From Oceaniferula marina (GTDB lineage: Bacteria; Verrucomicrobiota; Verrucomicrobiia; Verrucomicrobiales; Akkermansiaceae): DNA of 64,000 bases. The DNA is taken from the NCBI RefSeq assembly GCF_013391475.1, contig NZ_JACBAZ010000004.1, positions 62,001 through 126,000 of the forward strand, in the 5' to 3' direction. Both the position numbers and the translations under genes were made by a program. Every line of letters begins with the position of its first letter. The first letter of the stretch is position 1. Shown in pieces: positions 14,481 to 60,421 of this stretch. The notes below the pieces were generated by a model. The model worked only from the letters and a program-made list of their open reading frames with translations. It made no database searches and had not been told where the DNA came from.

Positions 14481-14996
14481 TCAGACTAAGGTGTCTTCCT
14501 TCTTTTTATCATCCTTTTTCTTGTCCTTGTGATCGTCACAAGTGTCACAAGCTAAGGTGTCTTCCTTTTTCTTGTCGTCTTTCTTCTTGTCCTTGTGATC
14601 GTCACAGGTGTCACAAGCTAAGGTGTCTTCCTTCTTCTTGTCGTCTTTCTTCTTATCCTTGTGGTCGTCACAAGTGTCACAAGCTAAGGCGTCTTCCTTC
14701 TTCTTGTCGTCTTTCTTCTTATCCTTGTGGTCGTCACAAGTGTCGCAGGCCAATTCACTATCATGTTTTTTGTCTGCTCCTTTTTTCTTATCGTCATCAC
14801 TTTTTTCAGTGATCAAGGCTGGATCATCTGCATCGTCACCTTTTTTCTTGCCCTTATCGCACTCAGTTTGAATCAGGGTTGCTTCGCTTTTTTTTGCACC
14901 GTCGCATTTTTTCTTTCCTGAACAGCCGCCATCTTCAGCCCCCAGAGGAAGCAATAATAAGGATGACGCCAGCATGCATGAGGTTATCAATTTCAT
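14481..14996 (-). CDS. secreted Cys/Lys/Asp-rich repeat protein B
   Basis: A 171-aa product from the ATG at 14996 (MKLITSCMLA). The signal peptide ends near PLGA, and the mature protein starts EDGGCSGKKKCDG, nearly the same as protein A. Next come two diverged blocks closed by SEATLI and DPALIT, one closed by DSELA, and then four almost identical 22-residue repeats of the form CDTCDDHKDKKKDDKKKED followed by TLA; the last ends in EDTLV at the C-terminus. Each repeat has a CDTC pair and alternating Lys/Asp runs, so the protein is highly charged but near balanced. Predicted disordered. Function unknown; metal binding or an extracellular ionic matrix are guesses. Confidence 0.65.
   Translation of the reverse strand: MKLITSCMLASSLLLLPLGAEDGGCSGKKKCDGAKKSEATLIQTECDKGKKKGDDADDPALITEKSDDDKKKGADKKHDSELACDTCDDHKDKKKDDKKKEDALACDTCDDHKDKKKDDKKKEDTLACDTCDDHKDKKKDDKKKEDTLACDTCDDHKDKKKDDKKKEDTLV
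14486..14749 (-). repeat. four 66-bp tandem repeats within repeat protein B
   Basis: Copies begin at 14486, 14552, 14618 and 14684, each starting CTAAGG on the plus strand. They differ at only a few positions, mostly synonymous C/T changes. They are contiguous, in frame (22 codons) and without spacers, so this is a coding minisatellite and not a CRISPR array. Confidence 0.9.
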
Positions 14997-15526
14997 AATG
15001 TGTAGTTGTTTTAGGGTTTGTTGTGAGCCCCCAAACACGGGAGCTCATCGTATAGACCGTAGCCCATATAAGCTAACATAGTTACCCTCTTTTAAAAAAA
15101 CGCCACCAAAAATCGAAAAAACAGCCAAGCATTCAAGACAACATGCCTCAAATTCCACCCTGGAGATCACGCTTCAAATGACTCGCCCTTCAGATGGCCC
15201 ACATCCATCCCACACCCCGTCCCATCTATAACCCATAGGCTTCCCTCAGCTTCCCCTTGCCTGACTCTATGCCGATATCCCCAGCCCCATAAGACCGCCT
15301 CCACACAAAAAAAATAAAAAAAATCCGGCAGACTCATGATCCCCCGGATTTACTTAATAAAAATTGACTACTTCGCACACGTAATACCATTTGAGTGGTA
15401 TAAAAGGTCGATCGCGGCACAAAGCCTCACAAGCGAATCTCGCGCCTCAGCAAGGCACATTCGTGAACAAGCCACAAGCGCTTCAGCCAAGCAAAAAGCC
15501 CGGGAAACGGTAGCGCTCAATCTGTG
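14997..15526. other. intergenic stretch, no gene seen
   Basis: About 530 bases. It includes the upstream region of repeat protein B, a C-rich part near 15200-15290 and an A-rich tract near 15305-15320. An inverted repeat ATACCA/TGGTAT lies around 15386-15403. The plus-strand ORF from 15336 has no protein-like features and overlaps the small minus-strand gene. Confidence 0.4.
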
Positions 15527-18065: not shown

Positions 18066-20780
18066 ATGCCAGACGAGCAACCACAGTCCACGCCTCCCAA
18101 GCAAGCCCCGATGCCCGACGGCCTGCGCACCCAGCTGGAACAGTTTAAAACACAACTCTGGAAAATCAAAGTCGCCGAAGCCATTCTCGCTGGGTTTTTC
18201 GGTCTGCTGTTGTCCTACCTCCTCGTCTTCGGTTTGGACCGATTCATGGAAACCCCGAATTCCCTGCGTCTGCTGATTCTCGTTCTCGGGGTCTCCCTGT
18301 TTTCGCTCTTTGCCCCCTACTGGATCAGACGCTGGGTCTTTGGCCACCGCCAGGAAAACCAACTCGCCAGGCTCATTTCCCGCAGATTTCCCAAATTGGG
18401 TGACCGACTCCTTGGAGTGGTCGAACTCCAAAACCAGCAGGAAACCAAAGAAACGCTCTCGCCCGAACTTCGTTCGGCCGCCATGCGAACCGTCGCAGCA
18501 GAAACGGCGAAACGCGACCTGCTTGACGCCCTGCCCGCAGCCCGTCACCGCAAAGGGGGGCTTGTGGTTATGGCTCTTCTTGCCCTTTCAGCCACTGCAA
18601 TGATCAGCGTTCCCGACGCCGGAATCAACTCCCTGAAACGCTGGCTCATGCCACTCTCAAACACCGAACGCTACACCTTCACCCAACTTGATCTCTCGAA
18701 CATCTCCCAACCCCATCACGTCCCATACGGAGAATCCTTCAGCATCACCATCCCACTTTCAGAAAACACCAACCGCCACCCTGATAGCGCCCGCGCCCAA
18801 TACGGCAACGGCGAATGGATCGAAGCGCCACTCGTCAACCGCAGCTACACCTTCACCTTTCCAGGACAAAGAGCCAAAGACCATATCCACCTTGAAGCGG
18901 ACGACGCCCGACACAGTTTGCCTGTAGAGCCCGTCATCCGTCCTGAAATGGAACAGGTTCAAGCCATGATCGAATTACCCGCTTACCTCCAAAGAGACAA
19001 AGTGAGTGCCGATCTCCGGGCCGGCTACCTTTCAGTGCTGGAAGGCAGCCAGGTCACCATCCAAACGACCATCAACCGGGCCATATCGGCAGCCGGAGCC
19101 AAAGTCATCCACCTTCCAAAAGAAGCACCCGAGGCTCTCCCGCTACCAGAATCCGCTGAGGCTGCAGAATCCGCCACCACGGCTGAAACAGAAGATCCAT
19201 CGGCAAGCCCGGACGCACATCCCGAACAAAAGATGGTGCTCACGATCAATGAACGCAAGCTGACAACCCCGGCCATCACCATGCCGGATCACGCGCTCCT
19301 GATCCCAGTGGAATGGACCGATATCTACAACCTCAAGCCGGACACCTCGCTCAAAATCCGCCTCGAGAACACACAAGATCAAAGCCCGTCCACTTACATT
19401 CAGGGAGTGGAGCGCCAGCACATCATGCTGGTAGAAGAGACGCTCAGTTTCGAAGTTCTGGCTGAAGACGATTACGGATTGAAAGCATGCGGTCTGAGCT
19501 GGGAGGGTGAATTTACCAAACCAACCAGCCAGCAAGCGGCCAAAGGTGAACTCACCCTGGCTCAGGGAGCGCCGACCAAAACCACCCTGAACCAATCTTT
19601 TTCATTCTCTCCGATCAATATGGGCATTGAGCCCCAGAAGCTCATCCTCCGCTCCTGGACCGAAGATTACAAACCGGACCGCAAGCGAGTCTACTCGGAA
19701 CCGATCGTGCTCTACATCCTCACCCGTGATGAACACGCCCAAGTACTTAAAAACGAATTTGACCGTGCCATCGGAGAACTCGAAGACATCGCCCGCAAGG
19801 AACAAAACCTCAACGACGAAAACCAACGGATCGAACGCAATGATGCGGAAAAGCTACAAGATGAGACCAACCTCAAAAAAATCCAGAGTCAGCAAGATGC
19901 CGAGCGCGAGAACAAAGAGCGGATGCAGCGCCTGACCGAAAAGATGGAAAAGCTCTTCAAAGATGCCGTCCGCAACGGAGAGATCGATAAAGAGGCCCTG
20001 CAAAAAATGGGGAAAGCCCTCCAGAACATGCGGGAACTCGGGGCCCAGGACCTGCCAAAGGTCGAACAAAAACTTCAGGACGCCCAAAGCCAACGCAACA
20101 CCGCGGAAAAAACCAAAAAAGATCTACAAGAAGCGATCGAAGAGCAAAAAAAAGCTCTCGCCAAAATGAAACAGGCGCTCAAGGACGCCAATGAAGCCAA
20201 CCGCAATTTTGAAGCCAGCACCTTCGTCAACCGCCTGAAACGGGCGGCCACCGAAGAAGACGGTATTGCCTCCACCTTCATCGACTCGATCGACGATTTG
20301 ATCGGAGCCACCTTCGAAGAACTCGATCCGGTCCAGCAGAGAGCCGTCAAAGAGGCACACAACCAGCAACGGCAAACAGCCAGCGACGTCCGGTGGATTC
20401 AAGAGGACCTCGCCCACTACTATGCTCGCACCCAGAAAGAAGAACATAAAACTCTGGTAGAAGAAATGCGCAGCTCGCGCATCGATGAAGCGATGGAATT
20501 CTTATCCAATCAAGTTGCCTCCAACATTTCCGTCAAATCTCTGATCGAAGCCAAACGGCAGGCTGAACAACTACGCAAATGGGCCAAGCAACTTGAAGGA
20601 GACCAAGGAGGCGGCGGCGGCGGCGGCCAAGGCGGCGGCCAACCATCCCAGGAAGACAAAGACTTTGAATTCATGCTGAAGGTCATGCGCATGATCCAGA
20701 AAGAACAAGACATCCGCGAGCGGACCCGGGCCCTCGAAGACCTCAAACGCTCACTCAAGCTCGAAACCCCAACGAACTAA
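18066..20780 (+). CDS. DUF4175-like membrane protein with long coiled coil
   Basis: A 904-aa protein. Two membrane segments lie near residues 37-57 and 66-87, and a third near 163-185 (GGLVVMALLALSATAMISV). A large extracytoplasmic beta-rich part follows (about 190-550), then a charged coiled coil (about 560-720, rich in E, K, Q) and a Gly-rich segment near 845-860 before a short C-terminal helix. This layout is that of DUF4175-type proteins, whose function is not established. It is the first gene of an apparent operon running to 27020. A role in envelope organisation is inference. Confidence 0.65.
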   Translation: MPDEQPQSTPPKQAPMPDGLRTQLEQFKTQLWKIKVAEAILAGFFGLLLSYLLVFGLDRFMETPNSLRLLILVLGVSLFSLFAPYWIRRWVFGHRQENQLARLISRRFPKLGDRLLGVVELQNQQETKETLSPELRSAAMRTVAAETAKRDLLDALPAARHRKGGLVVMALLALSATAMISVPDAGINSLKRWLMPLSNTERYTFTQLDLSNISQPHHVPYGESFSITIPLSENTNRHPDSARAQYGNGEWIEAPLVNRSYTFTFPGQRAKDHIHLEADDARHSLPVEPVIRPEMEQVQAMIELPAYLQRDKVSADLRAGYLSVLEGSQVTIQTTINRAISAAGAKVIHLPKEAPEALPLPESAEAAESATTAETEDPSASPDAHPEQKMVLTINERKLTTPAITMPDHALLIPVEWTDIYNLKPDTSLKIRLENTQDQSPSTYIQGVERQHIMLVEETLSFEVLAEDDYGLKACGLSWEGEFTKPTSQQAAKGELTLAQGAPTKTTLNQSFSFSPINMGIEPQKLILRSWTEDYKPDRKRVYSEPIVLYILTRDEHAQVLKNEFDRAIGELEDIARKEQNLNDENQRIERNDAEKLQDETNLKKIQSQQDAERENKERMQRLTEKMEKLFKDAVRNGEIDKEALQKMGKALQNMRELGAQDLPKVEQKLQDAQSQRNTAEKTKKDLQEAIEEQKKALAKMKQALKDANEANRNFEASTFVNRLKRAATEEDGIASTFIDSIDDLIGATFEELDPVQQRAVKEAHNQQRQTASDVRWIQEDLAHYYARTQKEEHKTLVEEMRSSRIDEAMEFLSNQVASNISVKSLIEAKRQAEQLRKWAKQLEGDQGGGGGGGQGGGQPSQEDKDFEFMLKVMRMIQKEQDIRERTRALEDLKRSLKLETPTN

Positions 20781-20813: not shown

Positions 20814-21509
20814 ATGAAGCTCTCATCCATCACTCTGGTCTGCGCGGCCATCACTACTCCGGTTTTACTGGGCGAAACCGGAGATCCCAAAACCAGTACC
20901 CAACCTGATCGGCAAGCCATCGAACAAGGGGTTCAACAACATGAAAAAGGAGCCCAAAAACTCGCCTTTGAACAAGACGACCTTTCGGCCGATGTCCAAG
21001 ACCTCATCGATGAACAAACCGACCCGGAAGTGATCAAACTGCTCGGAGAGGTCGAACTCATCATGGCTGAAGCCACCGACTTACTCGAGCAAACCGATAC
21101 CGGAGGTGCTACCATCGCGGTGGAAACCGAGGTCATCGAAAAAATATTCGACGCTGCGAAAAAGAAACAACAGCAATCCGGCGGCGGATGACAGAGTAGC
21201 CAAAAGAGCATGGGTTCCATGCTCGAAATGATGCAAAACATGATGCAAGGCGGCCAAGACGTTGGCAAAGCCCCGGGCGAAGGTCAGCAACCTGGTGAAG
21301 GCCAGGGTGAAGGCCAAGGCAACGGCGGTGGCGGCCAAGGAAGCTCAGACGGAGGAGGCCAACCCGGAGACCCGGATAACACCGATCCCAACAGCGAGCG
21401 TCGGGTGCCCAAAAATTCAGGCAACACCGGAGGCTCCCTTCCCCGTGAGTTCCAAAAAGCCATGGACGCCTACAACAAAGGAGCCAAAGAACAACTCAAG
21501 AAGCCATAA
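20814..21509 (+). CDS. secreted low-complexity protein interrupted by an in-frame UGA (21189-21191)
   Basis: Two parts in the same frame. The first (125 codons, 20814-21191) has a signal peptide (MKLSSITLVCAAITTPVLLG), then a helical region with DLSADVQDLIDEQTDPEVIK, ending in KKQQQSGGG and a TGA. The frame continues without other stops through QSSQKSMGSMLEMMQNMMQ, a Gly/Gln/Glu-rich linker, and a motif-like end ERRVPKNSGNTGGSLPREFQ. The two parts together make sense as one protein of 230-231 aa. A perfect 8-bp hairpin begins 14 bases after the TGA. Options are a nonsense mutation, a sequence error, UGA readthrough or selenocysteine insertion, or separate translation from ATG 21210. It sits 33 bases after the DUF4175 gene. 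Confidence 0.6.
21206..21224 (+). promoter_or_regulatory. hairpin downstream of the in-frame UGA (SECIS-like geometry)
   Basis: GAGCATGG, loop GTT, CCATGCTC: a perfect 8-bp stem. The loop starts 22 bases after the UGA. Bacterial SECIS elements are hairpins in roughly this distance range with G near the start of the apical loop. The bulged U of the E. coli fdhF element is absent. Whether SelB binds it is unknown. Confidence 0.35.
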
Positions 21510-21586: not shown

Positions 21587-22573
21587 ATGAAACGTCTACT
21601 TTGCATCTTTCTCGCCGCTCCTATGCTTCTGCAAGCTCAATCGCTTCCCAGAAGACAGAACGATGTCATCCCGGTGCAGGTGGAAACCATGTATACCAAA
21701 GGCCTGCGCTATCTCTCGAACACCCAAACCGCTGACGGGTGCTGGGCCGGGGGCAACAGCGGATCCCGTCCAGGTGTGGTTGGCCTCTGCCTGCTTGCCT
21801 TTCTGGCTCACGGAGAAGATCCCAACCATGGCCCCTACGCCCAGAAAATCAGTAAATCCCTGAACTTTCTGCTCGAAGCTCAGAAGAAAAACGAGCAGGG
21901 ATACATGGGGCCCCAAATGTATGATCATGGCTTTGCAACGCTAGCCCTGGCCGAATGCTACGGCATGGTCGATGACAAGCGCATCGCTCCGGCATTACAA
22001 AAAGCAGTGGATTTGATCCTGAAATCCCAGGAAAGCAACCCGCGCAAAGCATGGCGTTACGACCCCACCACCCGGACCGCCGACACCACCGTTTCAGGCT
22101 GTCAGATTGTCGCGCTACTCGCCGCCCGAAATGCAGGTATCCCCGTCCCGGATAAAGCACTCGATCAAGCCCTCGCTTATATGAAGTCGTGCCGCAGCTC
22201 GAACGGAGCCTATGGATACACCAGCAAAGGAGGAGGACGCCTCACCCTGAGTGCCATCGGTTCACTCTGTTACTCACTGGCAAAAAAGAAAGACGAAGCC
22301 GGGTTTGCAAAAACCACCGAATACCTCAAACAGAACATCAAGGTCCAGGAAGGAACCTACCCATTCTACTTCCGCTACTACATGTCCCAAGCGCTGTTCC
22401 AGGCCGACGTTGAACTCTGGGAAAGCTGGAATAAAGACAATATCCGCCTGCTCTCAGTCACCCAGCTGCCCGATGGCTCGTGGGCTGGCAACCACGGCAA
22501 TGCCTTCAGCACAGCCGGAGCCCTGCTCTCACTTGCCTTGAACTATCGCTTCCTACCGATCTACGAAAAATAA
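21587..22573 (+). CDS. secreted squalene-cyclase/prenyltransferase-like alpha/alpha-toroid protein
   Basis: About 328 aa from the ATG at 21587 (MKRLLCIFLAAPMLLQAQS, a signal peptide); the frame is open nine codons earlier. The mature protein carries repeats of the prenyltransferase/squalene-oxidase type: GLRYLSNTQTADGCWAGG near the start and QLPDGSWAGNHGNAFSTAGA near the end, both resembling QW motifs. The family's catalytic Asp motif (DxDD) is not visible, so cyclase activity is unlikely; such toroid folds also serve binding roles. It is encoded between the low-complexity protein and the triple paralogs, with only 3 bases to the next gene. Confidence 0.7.
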   Translation: MKRLLCIFLAAPMLLQAQSLPRRQNDVIPVQVETMYTKGLRYLSNTQTADGCWAGGNSGSRPGVVGLCLLAFLAHGEDPNHGPYAQKISKSLNFLLEAQKKNEQGYMGPQMYDHGFATLALAECYGMVDDKRIAPALQKAVDLILKSQESNPRKAWRYDPTTRTADTTVSGCQIVALLAARNAGIPVPDKALDQALAYMKSCRSSNGAYGYTSKGGGRLTLSAIGSLCYSLAKKKDEAGFAKTTEYLKQNIKVQEGTYPFYFRYYMSQALFQADVELWESWNKDNIRLLSVTQLPDGSWAGNHGNAFSTAGALLSLALNYRFLPIYEK

Positions 22574-22576
22574 ACC

Positions 22577-24130
22577 ATGAAACCAAGTAACTTTCTCATC
22601 ACCCTTGGCTTACTGGCCACCCCTGTGCTGGGTGCCGAGCCCGCAACCTCTCCATCGGACGCCGCAAATCAACCCGGCGATATGATCCGCTTCAGCAACG
22701 AGGATACCCTTCATGGCGAATTTCGCTCCTTTGCAGGAAAAGACAGCCTGACATGGAGCAGCCCGGAATCCAAGGAGCCGATCACCTTTCAAACCAAAAA
22801 ACTCCACCGCATCGTACTCAACAACGGCCAGGCACGGCAGAGCCTGAAACACACATCCGCGATCCACCTGATCAATGGGGATGTCATCCCCGGCCTGATT
22901 ACCGAGGTGAATGAATCACTCGTCAAAATCCAAACCGAACACCTCGGAAACATTGATGTTCCTCGAGACACGGTCTCCCATCTGACACCAAGCCCATTCG
23001 GAGGCAAACTGCTCTACTATGGACCACTGAGCACCGAAGGTTGGAAAACGATGGCGCCCACCCAAGATAAGAAAAAAGAAAAAGACGAAGAAAAAGCCGA
23101 AAAACCAGCTCAGGAAAACGAGGCCGCAAAGCCTCAAAATGAAGCGGACGCCAAAGCCAAGGAAGAAAAAGAAAAAAAGCAAGCGACCTGGCAGCACGTA
23201 GCCAACGCATGGTATGCAGGCAAGGACAAGTCGATCTATCTGGTTCGGGAAAATGCCCTTCCCGACCGCTGTAAGCTGAGCTTTGATCTGGCATGGCAAG
23301 GATCGCTCTACGCCAATGTCGTCCTCCACGCCGACTTCGCTCCACCCGAAGCCAAAGAACAGGAAGAAGAGCACAAGCATAGCCGCAGCTACAACAACAC
23401 GCCGGGGCACTGCTATATTCTCAACGTCACCAGCCATAGCGCCACGCTCTCGTCCATTACCTACGATGACAACGGTAAACCCCACTCCAACCGCTTCGAT
23501 GACACACGGGCGTCACTCGGACTTTCAGGCAAAGAACATACAAGTATCGAACTACGGATTGACCGACCACAAAAATCCATTCTCCTCTTTTCTGATGGTC
23601 AATTCCGGTGCAAATGGGATCTTGGAGAAACATACGACGGCAAAGGAAACCACCTCGCCTTTCGTAACCTCGGCTATAACCACGCCAAACTCAGAGTCAG
23701 CAACATCGCCATCAGCCATTGGAATGGCATGAAGGATTCCGCCCAGAGCATGAGCCACAGCAAGCGAGACGTCATCTTGCTCAACAACGGGCTGGACCGC
23801 TTCTCAGGAACCCTGAAACACCTCCGGAACCAACAAGTTAGTTTCGTCGGGTCCTACGACAGCGAACTCACGATCCCACTCGAAGAAGTTCAGGAAATCC
23901 ACCTTGCCTCCAACGGACAAAAAAAATCGGAAGCCGACACCGCCCGCCACGTCTATTTCTACATCTATCCATACGGCCGGATCTCAGGAACCCCCAGCCA
24001 GTCACAAAACGGCACCACCAGCATCAGCAACGATCTCTTGGGTGAACTCAAACTCAATACGAACTACGTCAACATTATCGACTTTTCACATAACAACAGC
24101 CTACTCGATCTCTGGGATGACAATTTCTAA
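22577..24130 (+). CDS. secreted paralog 1 of 3: NGD-repeat protein with LamG-like middle
   Basis: A 517-aa product with a signal peptide (MKPSNFLITLGLLATPVLGA). It has repeated short beta modules of the pattern 'NGDxxxGxxxxxxxxxxxIxTxxxGxIxIPxxxVxxL' at about residues 90-135 (LINGDVIPG, then GNIDVPRDTV) and near 390-440 (LNNGLDRFSG, LTIPLEEVQEI). Between them lie a Lys/Glu-rich linker (about 160-205) and a beta-rich segment resembling concanavalin-like (LamG/DUF1080-type) domains, with FDLAWQGSLYANVVLHADF. It overlaps the next gene by 14 bases. Glycan binding is a guess from the fold; no function known. Confidence 0.6.
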   Translation: MKPSNFLITLGLLATPVLGAEPATSPSDAANQPGDMIRFSNEDTLHGEFRSFAGKDSLTWSSPESKEPITFQTKKLHRIVLNNGQARQSLKHTSAIHLINGDVIPGLITEVNESLVKIQTEHLGNIDVPRDTVSHLTPSPFGGKLLYYGPLSTEGWKTMAPTQDKKKEKDEEKAEKPAQENEAAKPQNEADAKAKEEKEKKQATWQHVANAWYAGKDKSIYLVRENALPDRCKLSFDLAWQGSLYANVVLHADFAPPEAKEQEEEHKHSRSYNNTPGHCYILNVTSHSATLSSITYDDNGKPHSNRFDDTRASLGLSGKEHTSIELRIDRPQKSILLFSDGQFRCKWDLGETYDGKGNHLAFRNLGYNHAKLRVSNIAISHWNGMKDSAQSMSHSKRDVILLNNGLDRFSGTLKHLRNQQVSFVGSYDSELTIPLEEVQEIHLASNGQKKSEADTARHVYFYIYPYGRISGTPSQSQNGTTSISNDLLGELKLNTNYVNIIDFSHNNSLLDLWDDNF

Positions 24131-25445
24131 ACATTCTTTGCTCAAACCTCTGACTGCGGTGGCCATGACCGTATTCGGTTCTGTGCCCGGAACACTGGTC
24201 GCTGATATCATCGAACTCCAAGGAGGTGATGTCCTCACAGGGGATATCAAAGCGCTCGATGCCAAGACCGTAACACTCCAATCCCCACTCACCCCCACCC
24301 CGCTGGCAATCAAAGCCGAACACATCGGCAATATCAGTTTCTCAGCAAAAGAGTCCACCCCGGAAAAACACAACGAGCAGCTCACCCTGAGTAACGGCGA
24401 CATCCTCCCGTGTCAGGTCATAGCGCTCAATGACCAATCACTGCAAATCTCCACTTGGTATGCAGGTGACTTCAACATCCCGCGCGAACACCTCAGAGCT
24501 CTACAATTCGGACTTCAGGAAAACAAGCTGATCTATCAGGGGAATGATGACCCGTCCCAATGGACAACCCGTGAAGGACGTTGGTCATACAACGAGGGCA
24601 AGGGCTACCAATGCCAAAATGTCGGGACGCTTGCCCGCAAACTCGAACTGAGTGAGAACCTCCTCATCAACTTATCCCTTGTCTGGAAAGAAAGCCCAAA
24701 CTTCGCCTTCCGCTTCTGCGCGGAAAATGACAAAGCCACCACCAAACAGAATTGTTACGAACTGACATTCAATTCATCCGGTTTGAAAATCAGCCGCTGC
24801 CTCACCAACCGAACCCAAATCTCACTGGCAAGCATCAACCTCAAACCTCACGAAATCGACGAACAAAAACTCGACGTCGAACTCAGGGTGGATCGCAAAA
24901 CGGGTAAAATCACCCTACTGCTCGACGGCGCTGAGCGTGGATTCTGGATGGACACCTTTGAAGCCCCCGAAGGAAACTACATCATCCTCAACAACCGCTC
25001 CAACCGTGGATACGGATTTTTCATCGACCAGCTCACCGTCCGCAACTGGAACGCCGGAAACCTCCGCAAACTAACAGATAAAAAATATGCGGAAACCAGT
25101 GACCTTCTGGCTGACATCAACGGTGAGCATCTGACAGGCAAACTCCTCACGATCAACAAGGGGGCCGAAGGTGGACTCACCGTTTCCCTGTCCCGCCCGC
25201 ACGCCACCAAGCCGGCCAAGGTTCCGGGAAAGCTTATCGACACCCTGTTTTTTGGTAGGGACAAAGACAGCCCAACGGTCGCACAAGGAAACTACACCGT
25301 CGAATTTGTCGGAGGTGGCCAACTCCAACTCCAGTCCCCCACACTCGACCGCGGAAAAATCACCACCAAACATCCGATCCTCGGCAACTGCACCATCGAT
25401 ACCAGCGCCGTGTCCCGAATCACCCAACGTAAAAATACTCCCTAA
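24117..25445 (+). CDS. secreted paralog 2 of 3: NGD-repeat protein with LamG-like middle
   Basis: About 442 aa. I take the ATG at 24117 (MTISKHSLLK), which overlaps the end of the previous gene by 14 bases and starts a signal peptide ending near TLVA; the longer frame from 23904 is a shadow in the preceding gene. Modules: GGDVLTGDIKAL (about residue 40), SNGDILPCQVIAL (about 95) with NIPREHLRAL, then a LamG-like middle with NLSLVWKESPNFAFRFCAEN, and a C-terminal module (ADINGEHLTGKLLTI). Same architecture as its neighbours, so they probably arose by tandem duplication and may form a complex. Confidence 0.6.
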   Translation: MTISKHSLLKPLTAVAMTVFGSVPGTLVADIIELQGGDVLTGDIKALDAKTVTLQSPLTPTPLAIKAEHIGNISFSAKESTPEKHNEQLTLSNGDILPCQVIALNDQSLQISTWYAGDFNIPREHLRALQFGLQENKLIYQGNDDPSQWTTREGRWSYNEGKGYQCQNVGTLARKLELSENLLINLSLVWKESPNFAFRFCAENDKATTKQNCYELTFNSSGLKISRCLTNRTQISLASINLKPHEIDEQKLDVELRVDRKTGKITLLLDGAERGFWMDTFEAPEGNYIILNNRSNRGYGFFIDQLTVRNWNAGNLRKLTDKKYAETSDLLADINGEHLTGKLLTINKGAEGGLTVSLSRPHATKPAKVPGKLIDTLFFGRDKDSPTVAQGNYTVEFVGGGQLQLQSPTLDRGKITTKHPILGNCTIDTSAVSRITQRKNTP

Positions 25446-25478
25446 GCGGCCTGGCTCCCGGACCGTTCCTTATCTATC

Positions 25479-27020
25479 ATGAAGCCTCTCACGCATATTT
25501 CTGCTCTTTCCTGTAGTCTCATCGGATTGCTTTGTCCGCTCATGAGTCAGGCTCAGGACGTCCAGATTGAACAGGCACTGGAAGAAGCCCTGCAAGCTGC
25601 CGTTGTCGAAGTCGCCGACCCGGACAAAGCCAACACTCCCGAGCAAACAGAAGAAAGCAAGACCGAGGAGCGAGACCCGACATCTTCTCGCATTTTCCTC
25701 ATGAACGGGGACAAGCTCAAAGGGACCCCCGAAGACCTCGATCCGGAAAATAGAATCCTGTTCAACGCGGAAAGCCTGCAACAAGCGGCGGCCTTCCCAC
25801 TCGAACAAGTGCTGCGCCTCCAGTTGGGAAATTGGAAAATGCGTGAATATCCGGCAACCCTCGCCCGGATCCAGCTCTGGCCACGTTACATCGGCCCCAC
25901 AACCAGCGACACGATCACTGGAGCCCTCCATGAATTGAGCCCCGAGCACATCACGCTCAAAACCTGGTACGGCGGACTCATCCCCATCAAACGCTCAATG
26001 GTGAAGTCCCTGCGCATCATCAACAACAGCCCTGGAAGCTATTTCGGCCCCAACAATATCAAAGAGTGGACACTCAGCTCCGGCAAAGGGAGCTGGCAGT
26101 TCTCCAATGGAGCCCTTGCCTCACGGGCAAGCGGCGGTATCGGACGTGACATGAAACTGGGTGAAAAGTCCCATATCAGCTTCGACCTCAGCTGGACCAA
26201 CTCCACCCGCTTCCGCATGCTGCTCTACTCCAACGACCTCAGCAGTGACCGACCCAACGCATGTTATGACATCACGCTCAACGGCAGCTACTGTTACCTT
26301 CAAACCAAAGGCAAAGCAAAAAAAGGAGTGCAACGTTTCGGAGGAGGCCGCTGGCCGAGACTCACCATCCCCTCGGATTCAAAACGAGTTCATTTTGATA
26401 TTTTTGCCAACCGGAAAACCGGGACCTTCACCGTTTACATCAACGGCGTGAGGGGCTGCCTGCTGCAATCCACCAACCCGGATCCGGAAGATCTCGGAAC
26501 CAACCTCTCGTTTGTCGCCGAAGAACGCCACCCGATTGAAATCTCCGGCCTGACCATCACCCCGTGGAATGGCACCAGTTTCCCCAACTCCAACAATAAC
26601 TTCTCCGGCAAAGAATCAGACGAAGAGAATGAGGACGATGGCGAGGAAGCACCGGAAGAATCGCCACACAACATCATCCTAACCAACGGCGACGAAGTTC
26701 CAGGAACCGTCGGCAAAGTCGAAGACGGCAGGATGATCGTTGAAACGGAATACACCCCGATCAAGATCCCCATCAAACGCATCAAATCGCTTTCTCTCGG
26801 AGATGAGGAAAACCAACCGATCATGAAATCCGGAGACGTCCGCTGCTGGTTCCACCAAGGAGGTTTCATCACCCTACAGCTCAAGCAGCTTAAAGATGGC
26901 AAACTCTCAGGCTACAGCCAGGCATTTGGAGATGTCACCCTCGACCTTGAAGCCTTCCATCAAATTGACTTCCACATCTACGATAGAGAAGCCAACCAAC
27001 GGCGCAGCCACCTCCGGTAG
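25479..27020 (+). CDS. secreted paralog 3 of 3: NGD-repeat protein with LamG-like middle
   Basis: A 513-aa product with a signal peptide ending around SQA (MKPLTHISALSCSLIGLLCP), then an acidic linker. Modules: LMNGDKLKGTPEDL (about residue 75), TITGALHELSPEHITLKTWY with GLIPIKRSMVKSL (about 145-185), the LamG-like middle (FDLSWTNSTRFRMLLYSND), and LTNGDEVPGTVGKV with KIPIKRIKSLSL near the end. A Glu/Asp-rich strip lies around residues 375-395. It closes the operon; selB follows 88 bases later. Confidence 0.6.
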   Translation: MKPLTHISALSCSLIGLLCPLMSQAQDVQIEQALEEALQAAVVEVADPDKANTPEQTEESKTEERDPTSSRIFLMNGDKLKGTPEDLDPENRILFNAESLQQAAAFPLEQVLRLQLGNWKMREYPATLARIQLWPRYIGPTTSDTITGALHELSPEHITLKTWYGGLIPIKRSMVKSLRIINNSPGSYFGPNNIKEWTLSSGKGSWQFSNGALASRASGGIGRDMKLGEKSHISFDLSWTNSTRFRMLLYSNDLSSDRPNACYDITLNGSYCYLQTKGKAKKGVQRFGGGRWPRLTIPSDSKRVHFDIFANRKTGTFTVYINGVRGCLLQSTNPDPEDLGTNLSFVAEERHPIEISGLTITPWNGTSFPNSNNNFSGKESDEENEDDGEEAPEESPHNIILTNGDEVPGTVGKVEDGRMIVETEYTPIKIPIKRIKSLSLGDEENQPIMKSGDVRCWFHQGGFITLQLKQLKDGKLSGYSQAFGDVTLDLEAFHQIDFHIYDREANQRRSHLR

Positions 27021-27062: not shown

Positions 27063-27083
27063 CAACTTGAAACTTGCAAGTTG
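27063..27083 (+). promoter_or_regulatory. hairpin in the selB 5' leader
   Basis: CAACTTG, loop AAACTTG, CAAGTTG, ending 25 bases before the selB ATG. It sits just upstream of the purine-rich stretch (AGGGGGA) that is probably the ribosome-binding site. E. coli represses selAB through SelB binding to a SECIS-like leader element; whether this does likewise is speculation. Confidence 0.3.
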
Positions 27084-27108
27084 GAACATCAGGGGGAAAT
27101 CTTTCGTC

Positions 27109-29022
27109 ATGCATCTCATTCTTGGCACCGCAGGTCATATTGACCACGGAAAATCCTCACTGGTCAGAGCGCTTACCGGAACCGACCCCGACCGCCTTCC
27201 CGAGGAAAAAGCACGCGGTGTGACGATCGAGCTGGGCTTTGCCCACCTCTCACTGCAAGACGACCACCAAACATACGAATTAGGGATCATTGATGTCCCC
27301 GGCCACGCCGATTTTGTCAACAACATGGTTTCGGGGGTCGGAGCGCTGGATATCGCCCTCTTCATCATCGCAGCCGATGACGGTTGGATGCCTCAATCTG
27401 AAGAACACCTGCACATCCTCACCTACCTCGGAGTCAAGCGGGTCATCATTGCGATGACCAAAAGCGATCTCTGCGACGATGTTCCCTTTGCCATTGAAGT
27501 CCTCCGCGATGAACTTCAGGGCACCGATATGGCCGAGGCCCCCATCGTACCGGTCTCATCAACCACAGGGGAAGGCATCGACCAGCTAAAACAAACCCTG
27601 CTACAAGAACTCAAACACTGCACCGCAGCCGCTGACAACGGCAAGCCAAGGCTCGCCATCGACCGCATTTTTTCTCCCAAAGGCTCAGGTACCGTAGTCA
27701 CAGGGACCCTCACCGGAGGCCACGTGAACCTCGGGGACACACTGACCTTACAGCCACTCGGCATCCCCGCCCGCGTCCGCTACATCCAAAACCACAATCA
27801 GGCACTGGAACAAGCCCAGCCCGGAATGCGTACCGCACTCAACCTACCCGACCTGCCGATTGCCAGCCCCGGCAAGCCAGGGGCCCAACGAGGTCACACC
27901 CTGACCACCGAGACCACAGGCCAAGCAAGCACCACACTCGATGTCCTGCTCACTCGTCTGAGCCGCCCCATCCCCGGAAGCCAGGATCGACCACTCCGTC
28001 ACACCGAAACCGTCATCCTCCACCACGGGTCGGCCCGCTGCCAGGCACGCGTGATTCTTCACGGCCAGAACCAACTGCAACCCGGAGAATCCTGCCTGGC
28101 TCAACTACGGCTGGAAACTCCAGTGCTGCTTCTGAGCGGCGACCGTATCGTCCTTCGCGACGGAGCCCAACAACACACTCTCGCAGGGGGAACCATCCTC
28201 GATGCCCTGGCTGAGCGCCCGGGCTTCCGCACCGATGAACGGGCCGAATTCCTACAGCAACGGGTTCAGGCCCCCGGCACCCCGCGGCAAGACCTGCTAT
28301 CTCTGATCCACTACAAACATCAGCTCCCAGCCGACCAAGCTCTCCCCAACCACCCCGCATCCGTATCAACGATCCAAGATGTTCAGACCGATGAAATCGA
28401 GCAAGGCAGCATCATTCGCCACGGCGATACGCTACTCGATGCCCCCTGGTGGAAGCAGATCCTCCAACAAGCCGAAATGCTTATCCAACAATGGCACCAA
28501 ACCCAGCCCGATCTTCCGAGCATGCCATTAGAAGAACTTGAAAAGTCCTTACCCGATTGCCCCCAAGTGCTCTTCCGCATCTTGCCCGAAGCCCTCGAAT
28601 TAAAAGGGTATCAACGGCAAGGCAAAGGGATCGCCCACAGCAGCCACCAACTGACCCTGCCCGAACACCTCGCAGCCGACGCCAAAAACATCCTCAAGGC
28701 ACTGGACCAGGCAGGACTCCAACCTCCCAACAAAGCAGAACTCACCCCCACCCCGCAAGCCCAGCAAGCGATGCAGTTTTTGATTCGATCAAAGGAGGTC
28801 ATCGAACTCGACCCCAAGGTGGTCATCAGCCGCAGCAGCCGGGATCATGCTATTCACCTCGTCTCCAACTTCCTCACAAGCCGCGGCCAAGGTACCGCCA
28901 GCGAGCTGCGCCAAGAACTCGACAGCACACGGAAAGTCGTGATGCCACTGCTCGAACACCTCGACGCCATCGGCATCACGAGCCGCAACGAGAACTACCG
29001 CACGCTTCAACCGACGAACTAA
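27109..29022 (+). CDS. selB: selenocysteine-specific translation elongation factor SelB
   Basis: About 637 aa from the ATG at 27109 (MHLILGTAGHIDHGKSSLVR); upstream codons in the frame add nothing family-like. The G domain shows GHIDHGKS (G1), EEKARGVTIELGFAHL (switch region typical of SelB, lacking the EF-Tu form), DVPGHADFV (G3) and TKSD (G4). Domains II-III follow, then C-terminal winged-helix domains (for example FLTSRGQGTASELRQELD near the end) that bind SECIS RNA. SelB carries Sec-tRNA to recoded UGA codons. No selA, selD or tRNA-Sec is visible in the window. It implies that this genome encodes selenoproteins. Confidence 0.92.
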   Translation: MHLILGTAGHIDHGKSSLVRALTGTDPDRLPEEKARGVTIELGFAHLSLQDDHQTYELGIIDVPGHADFVNNMVSGVGALDIALFIIAADDGWMPQSEEHLHILTYLGVKRVIIAMTKSDLCDDVPFAIEVLRDELQGTDMAEAPIVPVSSTTGEGIDQLKQTLLQELKHCTAAADNGKPRLAIDRIFSPKGSGTVVTGTLTGGHVNLGDTLTLQPLGIPARVRYIQNHNQALEQAQPGMRTALNLPDLPIASPGKPGAQRGHTLTTETTGQASTTLDVLLTRLSRPIPGSQDRPLRHTETVILHHGSARCQARVILHGQNQLQPGESCLAQLRLETPVLLLSGDRIVLRDGAQQHTLAGGTILDALAERPGFRTDERAEFLQQRVQAPGTPRQDLLSLIHYKHQLPADQALPNHPASVSTIQDVQTDEIEQGSIIRHGDTLLDAPWWKQILQQAEMLIQQWHQTQPDLPSMPLEELEKSLPDCPQVLFRILPEALELKGYQRQGKGIAHSSHQLTLPEHLAADAKNILKALDQAGLQPPNKAELTPTPQAQQAMQFLIRSKEVIELDPKVVISRSSRDHAIHLVSNFLTSRGQGTASELRQELDSTRKVVMPLLEHLDAIGITSRNENYRTLQPTN

Positions 29023-60244: not shown

Positions 60245-60421
60245 CTTTCCAAGATGATGGTCATCTGATCTGAAACAAGCTGGCATCACCCCAGCAAGAA
60301 GAAAACCAATCGACCGCCAGTGGCCGCCACCCCACCCGGTTGGGACACCTCGGGGCTGAGAGATGCAAGGGCGCGAGAGTGCATGATCACCTCGCCCCAT
60401 TTCAAGCTCACCTTAGCGACA

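Follow-up and report, generated by a model that had tools for sequence, protein, structure and literature searches.

A candidate selenoprotein family of Akkermansiaceae with selenocysteine predicted in a low-complexity linker

Locus, reading frame and hairpin

The window analysed here, a stretch of 64,000 nucleotides from Oceaniferula marina (contig NZ_JACBAZ010000004.1), carries on its plus strand a candidate selenoprotein gene (20814..21509). It is preceded by a gene for a DUF4175-like coiled-coil partner (18066..20780, plus strand), assigned from synteny and because other families of the order encode it in one ORF together with the downstream domain, and followed by a conserved neighbour encoding a squalene-cyclase/prenyltransferase-like toroid protein (21590..22573, plus strand; DUF6288 above cut-off). 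Further along the same strand are three consecutive genes for proteins of about 510 aa (22577..27020), conserved operon members with no confident family, and selB (27067..29022; TIGR00475, E = 1.3e-91, above cut-off), encoding the selenocysteine (Sec)-specific elongation factor that would decode UGA. The order of the DUF4175-like gene, the selenoprotein gene, the prenyltransferase-like gene and the genes for hypothetical proteins is conserved in relatives with or without the UGA. Of these three hypothetical proteins, two have a weak LB_137-type match in common. On the minus strand, an ORF at 14481-15038 contains an almost exactly repeated unit, TLACDTCDDHKDKKKDDKKKED, rich in Cys and Lys/Asp.

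The frame 20814-21509 contains a single internal TGA (21189-21191, plus strand), stays open from there up to the TAA at 21507-21509 that closes it, and would encode 231 residues with Sec at position 126; if the UGA is taken as a stop, an ORF of 20814-21191 terminates with it. An 8-bp stem, GAGCATGG-GTT-CCATGCTC, begins 14 nt past the UGA. Its 5' arm occupies 21206-21213, the loop GTT (GUU) 21214-21216 and the 3' arm 21217-21224, and the loop starts 22 nt from the UGA. The coordinates of the split frame given in the original prediction are exact, and the perfect stem at 14 bases with a loop starting G-U at 22 bases was confirmed from the sequence. For the 45 nt that follow the UGA, the MFE is -14.5 kcal/mol, compared with -7.2 +/- 1.95 in dinucleotide shuffles (z = -3.7), and 1 of 200 shuffles folds equally well.

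At nine TGA codons of the window, the frame is open for at least 120 codons ahead of the TGA and for at least 100 beyond it, and two of these nine frames have a bSECIS-like hairpin; the hairpin alone is therefore weak evidence, and a comparison between species is needed. The TGA at 60266, beyond which the frame extends for 390 codons, was rejected as an off-frame shadow.

Orthologs, hairpin conservation and selenocysteine machinery

Orthologs were searched for in two sets, 98 related genomes and 260 from the same family, and were found in most. Among the extracted frames, the orthologs of 45 species genomes carry either one UGA or two, in frame and within the same short linker, distributed over four genera (seven genomes in g1, the genus of the window, 13 in g16, 21 in g9 and four in g10), and all belong to one Verrucomicrobiales family, Akkermansiaceae. 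The coding frame is conserved on both sides of the UGA in all 45. Two UGAs are present in 13 genomes, and the upstream UGA alone in three. The internal stops are UGA only, with no UAA or UAG seen inside the linker among the extracted ortholog frames. In a tree of 91 orthologs the UGA states are clustered, yet have changed repeatedly; only this broad pattern is used, as the counting rule mislabelled G287 (as U0) and G281 (as U1). Frameshifts suspected from split BLAST hits in G008, G012, G014, G020, G026 and G032 were dismissed, the frames being continuous and the alignments split by repeat-rich linkers.

This recurrence bears on two simpler explanations. The UGA could be a nonsense mutation, a sequencing error or the mark of a decaying pseudogene: in the window's Gly-rich linker one substitution would turn GGA into TGA, and UGA-less relatives have Gly, Gln or Ser there. 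However, 45 independent assemblies have a UGA in this linker along with a conserved hairpin and downstream frame, and this explanation, now of negligible probability, is refuted by the recurrence of the UGA across species. Alternatively, the locus could hold two cistrons, the first stopping at the UGA and the second restarting at the hairpin ATG (ATG GGT TCC ATG); restart at the ATG codons past the UGA is conceivable, but in over 100 species without the UGA a single protein is encoded continuously across the site, and the restarted product would have no signal peptide. Since this arrangement also leaves unexplained the link to the Sec machinery and the UxxC and UxxU variants described below, it was rejected on the species comparison as very improbable.

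The hairpin sequence (A/G)GC ATG GGT NCC ATG CTN, that is (A/G)GCATGGGTNCCATGCTN, is present in 45/45 UGA-bearing genes, and the apical loop is GU(U/G/C), with the GU invariant. The third codon positions are also constrained. The Gly codon of the hairpin is GGT in 45/45, whereas GGT makes up 16% of the Gly codons in the remainder of these genes; the following codon is NCC in 45/45, compared with 43% C-ending triplets among their other Ala/Ser NCN codons. Of the Gly codons at the hairpin position of UGA-less orthologs, 5/24 are GGT, and G277 has neither the UGA nor the loop U (GGA). The stem is nearly invariant across orthologs, so that covariation is possible at the outermost pair only. The selD hairpins of the same genomes have the same loop type, G-GU-N-C. 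The selD of the window genome itself (G000:C1:756478-757398, outside the window) contains one in-frame UGA, as in most relatives with the Sec trait.

Published constraints on bSECIS elements comprise an upper stem of 4-16 bp, an apical loop of 3-9 nt, a G at loop position 1 or 2 that usually precedes G or U, a UGA-to-loop distance of 16-37 nt and an MFE of at most -7.5 (PMC13188914, section 5). The putative SECIS hairpin at 21206..21224 has an 8-bp stem, a 3-nt loop with the GU that is invariant in 45/45, a distance of 22 nt and, over the 45-nt segment, an MFE of -14.5 kcal/mol; for minimal hairpins the values are -8.7 to -11.1. An Rfam search returned no SECIS or other family above threshold. 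The hairpin AGCATGGGTGCCATGCTG is kept without a UGA in L202 and in two related genomes, G036 and G045, both selA-bearing; the hairpin alone thus does not imply a UGA, and these three look like SECIS relics.

The distribution of the UGA follows that of the Sec machinery. selA is over the cut-off or clearly present in 41/45 UGA-bearing genomes, and the remaining 4/45 have SelB over the cut-off; the window genome encodes selA and selD, a tRNASec over the cut-off and, within the window, selB. No internal UGA was found, among the matches listed, in 113 homolog-bearing genomes without selA, a set in which some genomes were not read individually and the weakest homolog matches lie outside those listed. 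In genera g3, g7, g11 and g13, none of which has selA, all orthologs listed or read have an uninterrupted frame. The UGA is also absent in 20 selA-bearing genomes that have the gene. The association of UGA with selA gives a Fisher p of 1.3e-20, computed without phylogenetic correction. The original prediction placed selB about 6 kb downstream, correctly, and counted its proximity as support. This support was rejected: selB lies near the gene only in g1, where it also accompanies the UGA-less copies L161, L162 and L181, and the selB-containing neighbourhood was not seen around UGA-bearing copies of other genera. The proximity is uninformative for this reason; it is a genus-specific synteny and no evidence for recoding.

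UGA-C is a leaky stop context, and C follows most UGAs of the family, suggesting ordinary readthrough or a selenium-independent switch between two products, of which the truncated N-terminal domain would be a plausible one. Against this, the stops are always UGA and never UAA or UAG, they are confined to Sec-trait genera, the loop GU and the third bases of the hairpin codons are constrained, and UxxC, UxxU and Cys variants occur. Readthrough was rejected on the species comparison and is judged improbable. Neither it nor a nonsense mutation, the two alternatives raised at the outset, can explain the recurrent UGA, the hairpin, the link to the Sec machinery and the Cys variants together.

On the sequence comparison, the UGA and its hairpin stand far above chance. 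The gene very probably encodes a selenoprotein in which the UGA is read as Sec, belonging to a family that the catalogue consulted does not list. Recoding to Sec, as originally proposed, is supported by the UGA and the invariant-loop hairpin in 45 species, all with Sec machinery, and the proposed look for a UGA at this codon in relatives found it in four genera. In the mechanism envisaged, SelB-GTP-Sec-tRNASec would bind the loop and insert Sec at residue 126 to give the 231-aa protein, and when selenium is absent the product would stop at residue 125.

The selenocysteine site and the encoded protein

The linker of the window gene reads GGGUQSSQKSMGSML (U, Sec). Other linkers with one Sec are GGTUPSSGMSMGAML and SPUQGEGQSMGAML, while relatives include a UxxC type (SQUPSCSQSPSMGAML), a UxxU type (KGUGGUESNKKSMG) and a two-Sec linker (SQUPSAGGUPSRQKSMGAML). 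Redox-type motifs thus occur in some relatives (UPSC, UGGU, UKSNU and UPSAGGU), and the remark that the site lacks a redox partner, true of the window's own copy, is untrue of the family. Cys at this codon in relatives had been named as a sign of recoding. It was found at or near the Sec position in four Sec-less species, G057 (KQCSGG), G235 (SQCKGG), L226 (QQCKGG) and L217 (GGKCESS), but the majority of Sec-less relatives lack both residues there. Because Cys replaces Sec in only these four species, and dozens of others have Gly, Gln or Ser, Sec would not be required for the core role of the family. The Sec site is, as far as these sequences go, optional, with Sec-less lineages retaining the protein mostly without Cys.

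The predicted architecture comprises a signal-peptide-like N-terminus (judged by eye), a three-helix bundle, Sec126, a Met-rich helix (127-144), a disordered Gly/Gln/Pro linker and a conserved C-terminal helix. AlphaFold2 places helices at 33-67, 71-92, 98-121, 127-144 and 211-229, with a mean pLDDT of 64.7. A fold search of the predicted structure gave no significant solved fold (all E > 1), and no thioredoxin-like or other known redox fold was found among its results. The protein is probably exported, and Sec would lie in a flexible turn between the three-helix bundle and the Met-rich helix of an envelope protein. Its selenol could form a redox or soft-metal site, which in some relatives would include a partner Cys or another Sec, whereas the window copy has no such partner; such a role for the envelope protein is our guess, held with less than even confidence.

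NCBIfam 20.0 returned nothing above cut-off for the protein, and Pfam only a sub-threshold match to DUF4175 (PF13779), at 15.8 bits against a gathering score of 27.3. In other families of the order, the domain forms the C-terminal part of a single ORF of 1014-1226 aa (L235-L238), whose N-terminal part matches the gene upstream in the window (18066..20780). The protein thus appears to be the split-off C-terminal part of the DUF4175-like protein encoded just upstream. The fused proteins L237 and L238 have Cys clusters (CSNCSSC and CKSCSSC) in the Gly-rich linker of the upstream part, and the matching linker of the window's upstream gene reads GGGGGGGQGGGQ, without Cys. The clusters fit thiol chemistry in the system without proving it.

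Relation to known selenoproteins and the two-UGA genes

The family matches none of the 119 prokaryotic selenoprotein families catalogued in Table 1 of a 2026 catalogue (PMC13188914), and the text of the deep-Sep paper describes no such family (PMC12013277). In the open-access literature, no selenoprotein papers were found on Roseibacillus and none of relevance on Akkermansiaceae; this comparison covers open-access sources only, and an earlier mention of the family may exist. The family would add a selenoprotein to this lineage. It resembles bacterial SelB/bSECIS selenoproteins (PMC13188914) in its in-frame UGA, bSECIS-compliant hairpin, accompanying Sec machinery, UGA-bearing homologs in other species, and UxxC and UxxU motifs in some members. 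It differs in that Sec would lie in a low-complexity linker of a helical, apparently exported protein instead of a Trx-like fold, that most UGA-less homologs are without Cys, and that the number (1-2) and position of Sec vary. SelD of the same genomes shares the UGA and the apical loop type (G-GUU-C or G-GUC-C), but its UGA-to-loop distance is about 33-34 nt, compared with 22 nt here, and the proteins are unrelated. The relation to DUF4175 (PF13779, including Acinetobacter AdvA) consists of the position just downstream of a DUF4175-like gene, the fusion to a DUF4175-like part in a single ORF, seen in other families within the order, and the weak profile match, which falls short of the gathering score; DUF4175 was found in only one paper in the open-access literature, and no Sec is reported for it in the papers found.

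Published selenoprotein searches rely largely on Sec/Cys pairs, and would tend to miss this family because its Cys counterparts are mostly absent. Further selenoproteins may stay hidden likewise, with Sec in a disordered linker and usually no Cys counterpart. The natural variants of the family (one Sec, two Secs, UxxC, Cys, none, or a relic hairpin) form a series on the benefit, gain and loss of Sec.

The two-UGA genes offer a direct way to test how a single bacterial SECIS can act on more than one UGA. In most two-UGA members the loop lies 40 nt from the upstream UGA, beyond the 16-37 nt range. In the two-UGA genes of g9 the first UGA is 33 nt before the SECIS stem, with the loop at 40 nt, and a 6-bp hairpin (e.g. 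GCCGGC...GCCGGC) between the first UGA and the SECIS encloses the second UGA. Among 11 distinct sequences, spacer pair 11-30 is CG in five, GC in four and GU in two, and pair 15-26 is CG in nine and UA in two. Changes on both sides of a pair occur in nine cells, mainly between C-G and G-C and between C-G and U-A in the spacer helix, and 92.9% of cells pair across both helices. The covariation score was reached by 0/500 shuffles, and slid registers collapse with almost no covariation; as the 11 sequences are related and coding, the covariation is taken as moderate evidence. A single SECIS might tentatively be proposed to serve both UGAs through a collapsible spacer: the spacer hairpin would fold most of the 33-nt spacer away and bring the distal UGA within reach of the SECIS, and the ribosome would then open this hairpin, allowing the same SECIS to serve the second UGA at 22 nt. 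The spacer hairpin persists in G268, G287 and G291, which keep the upstream UGA alone.
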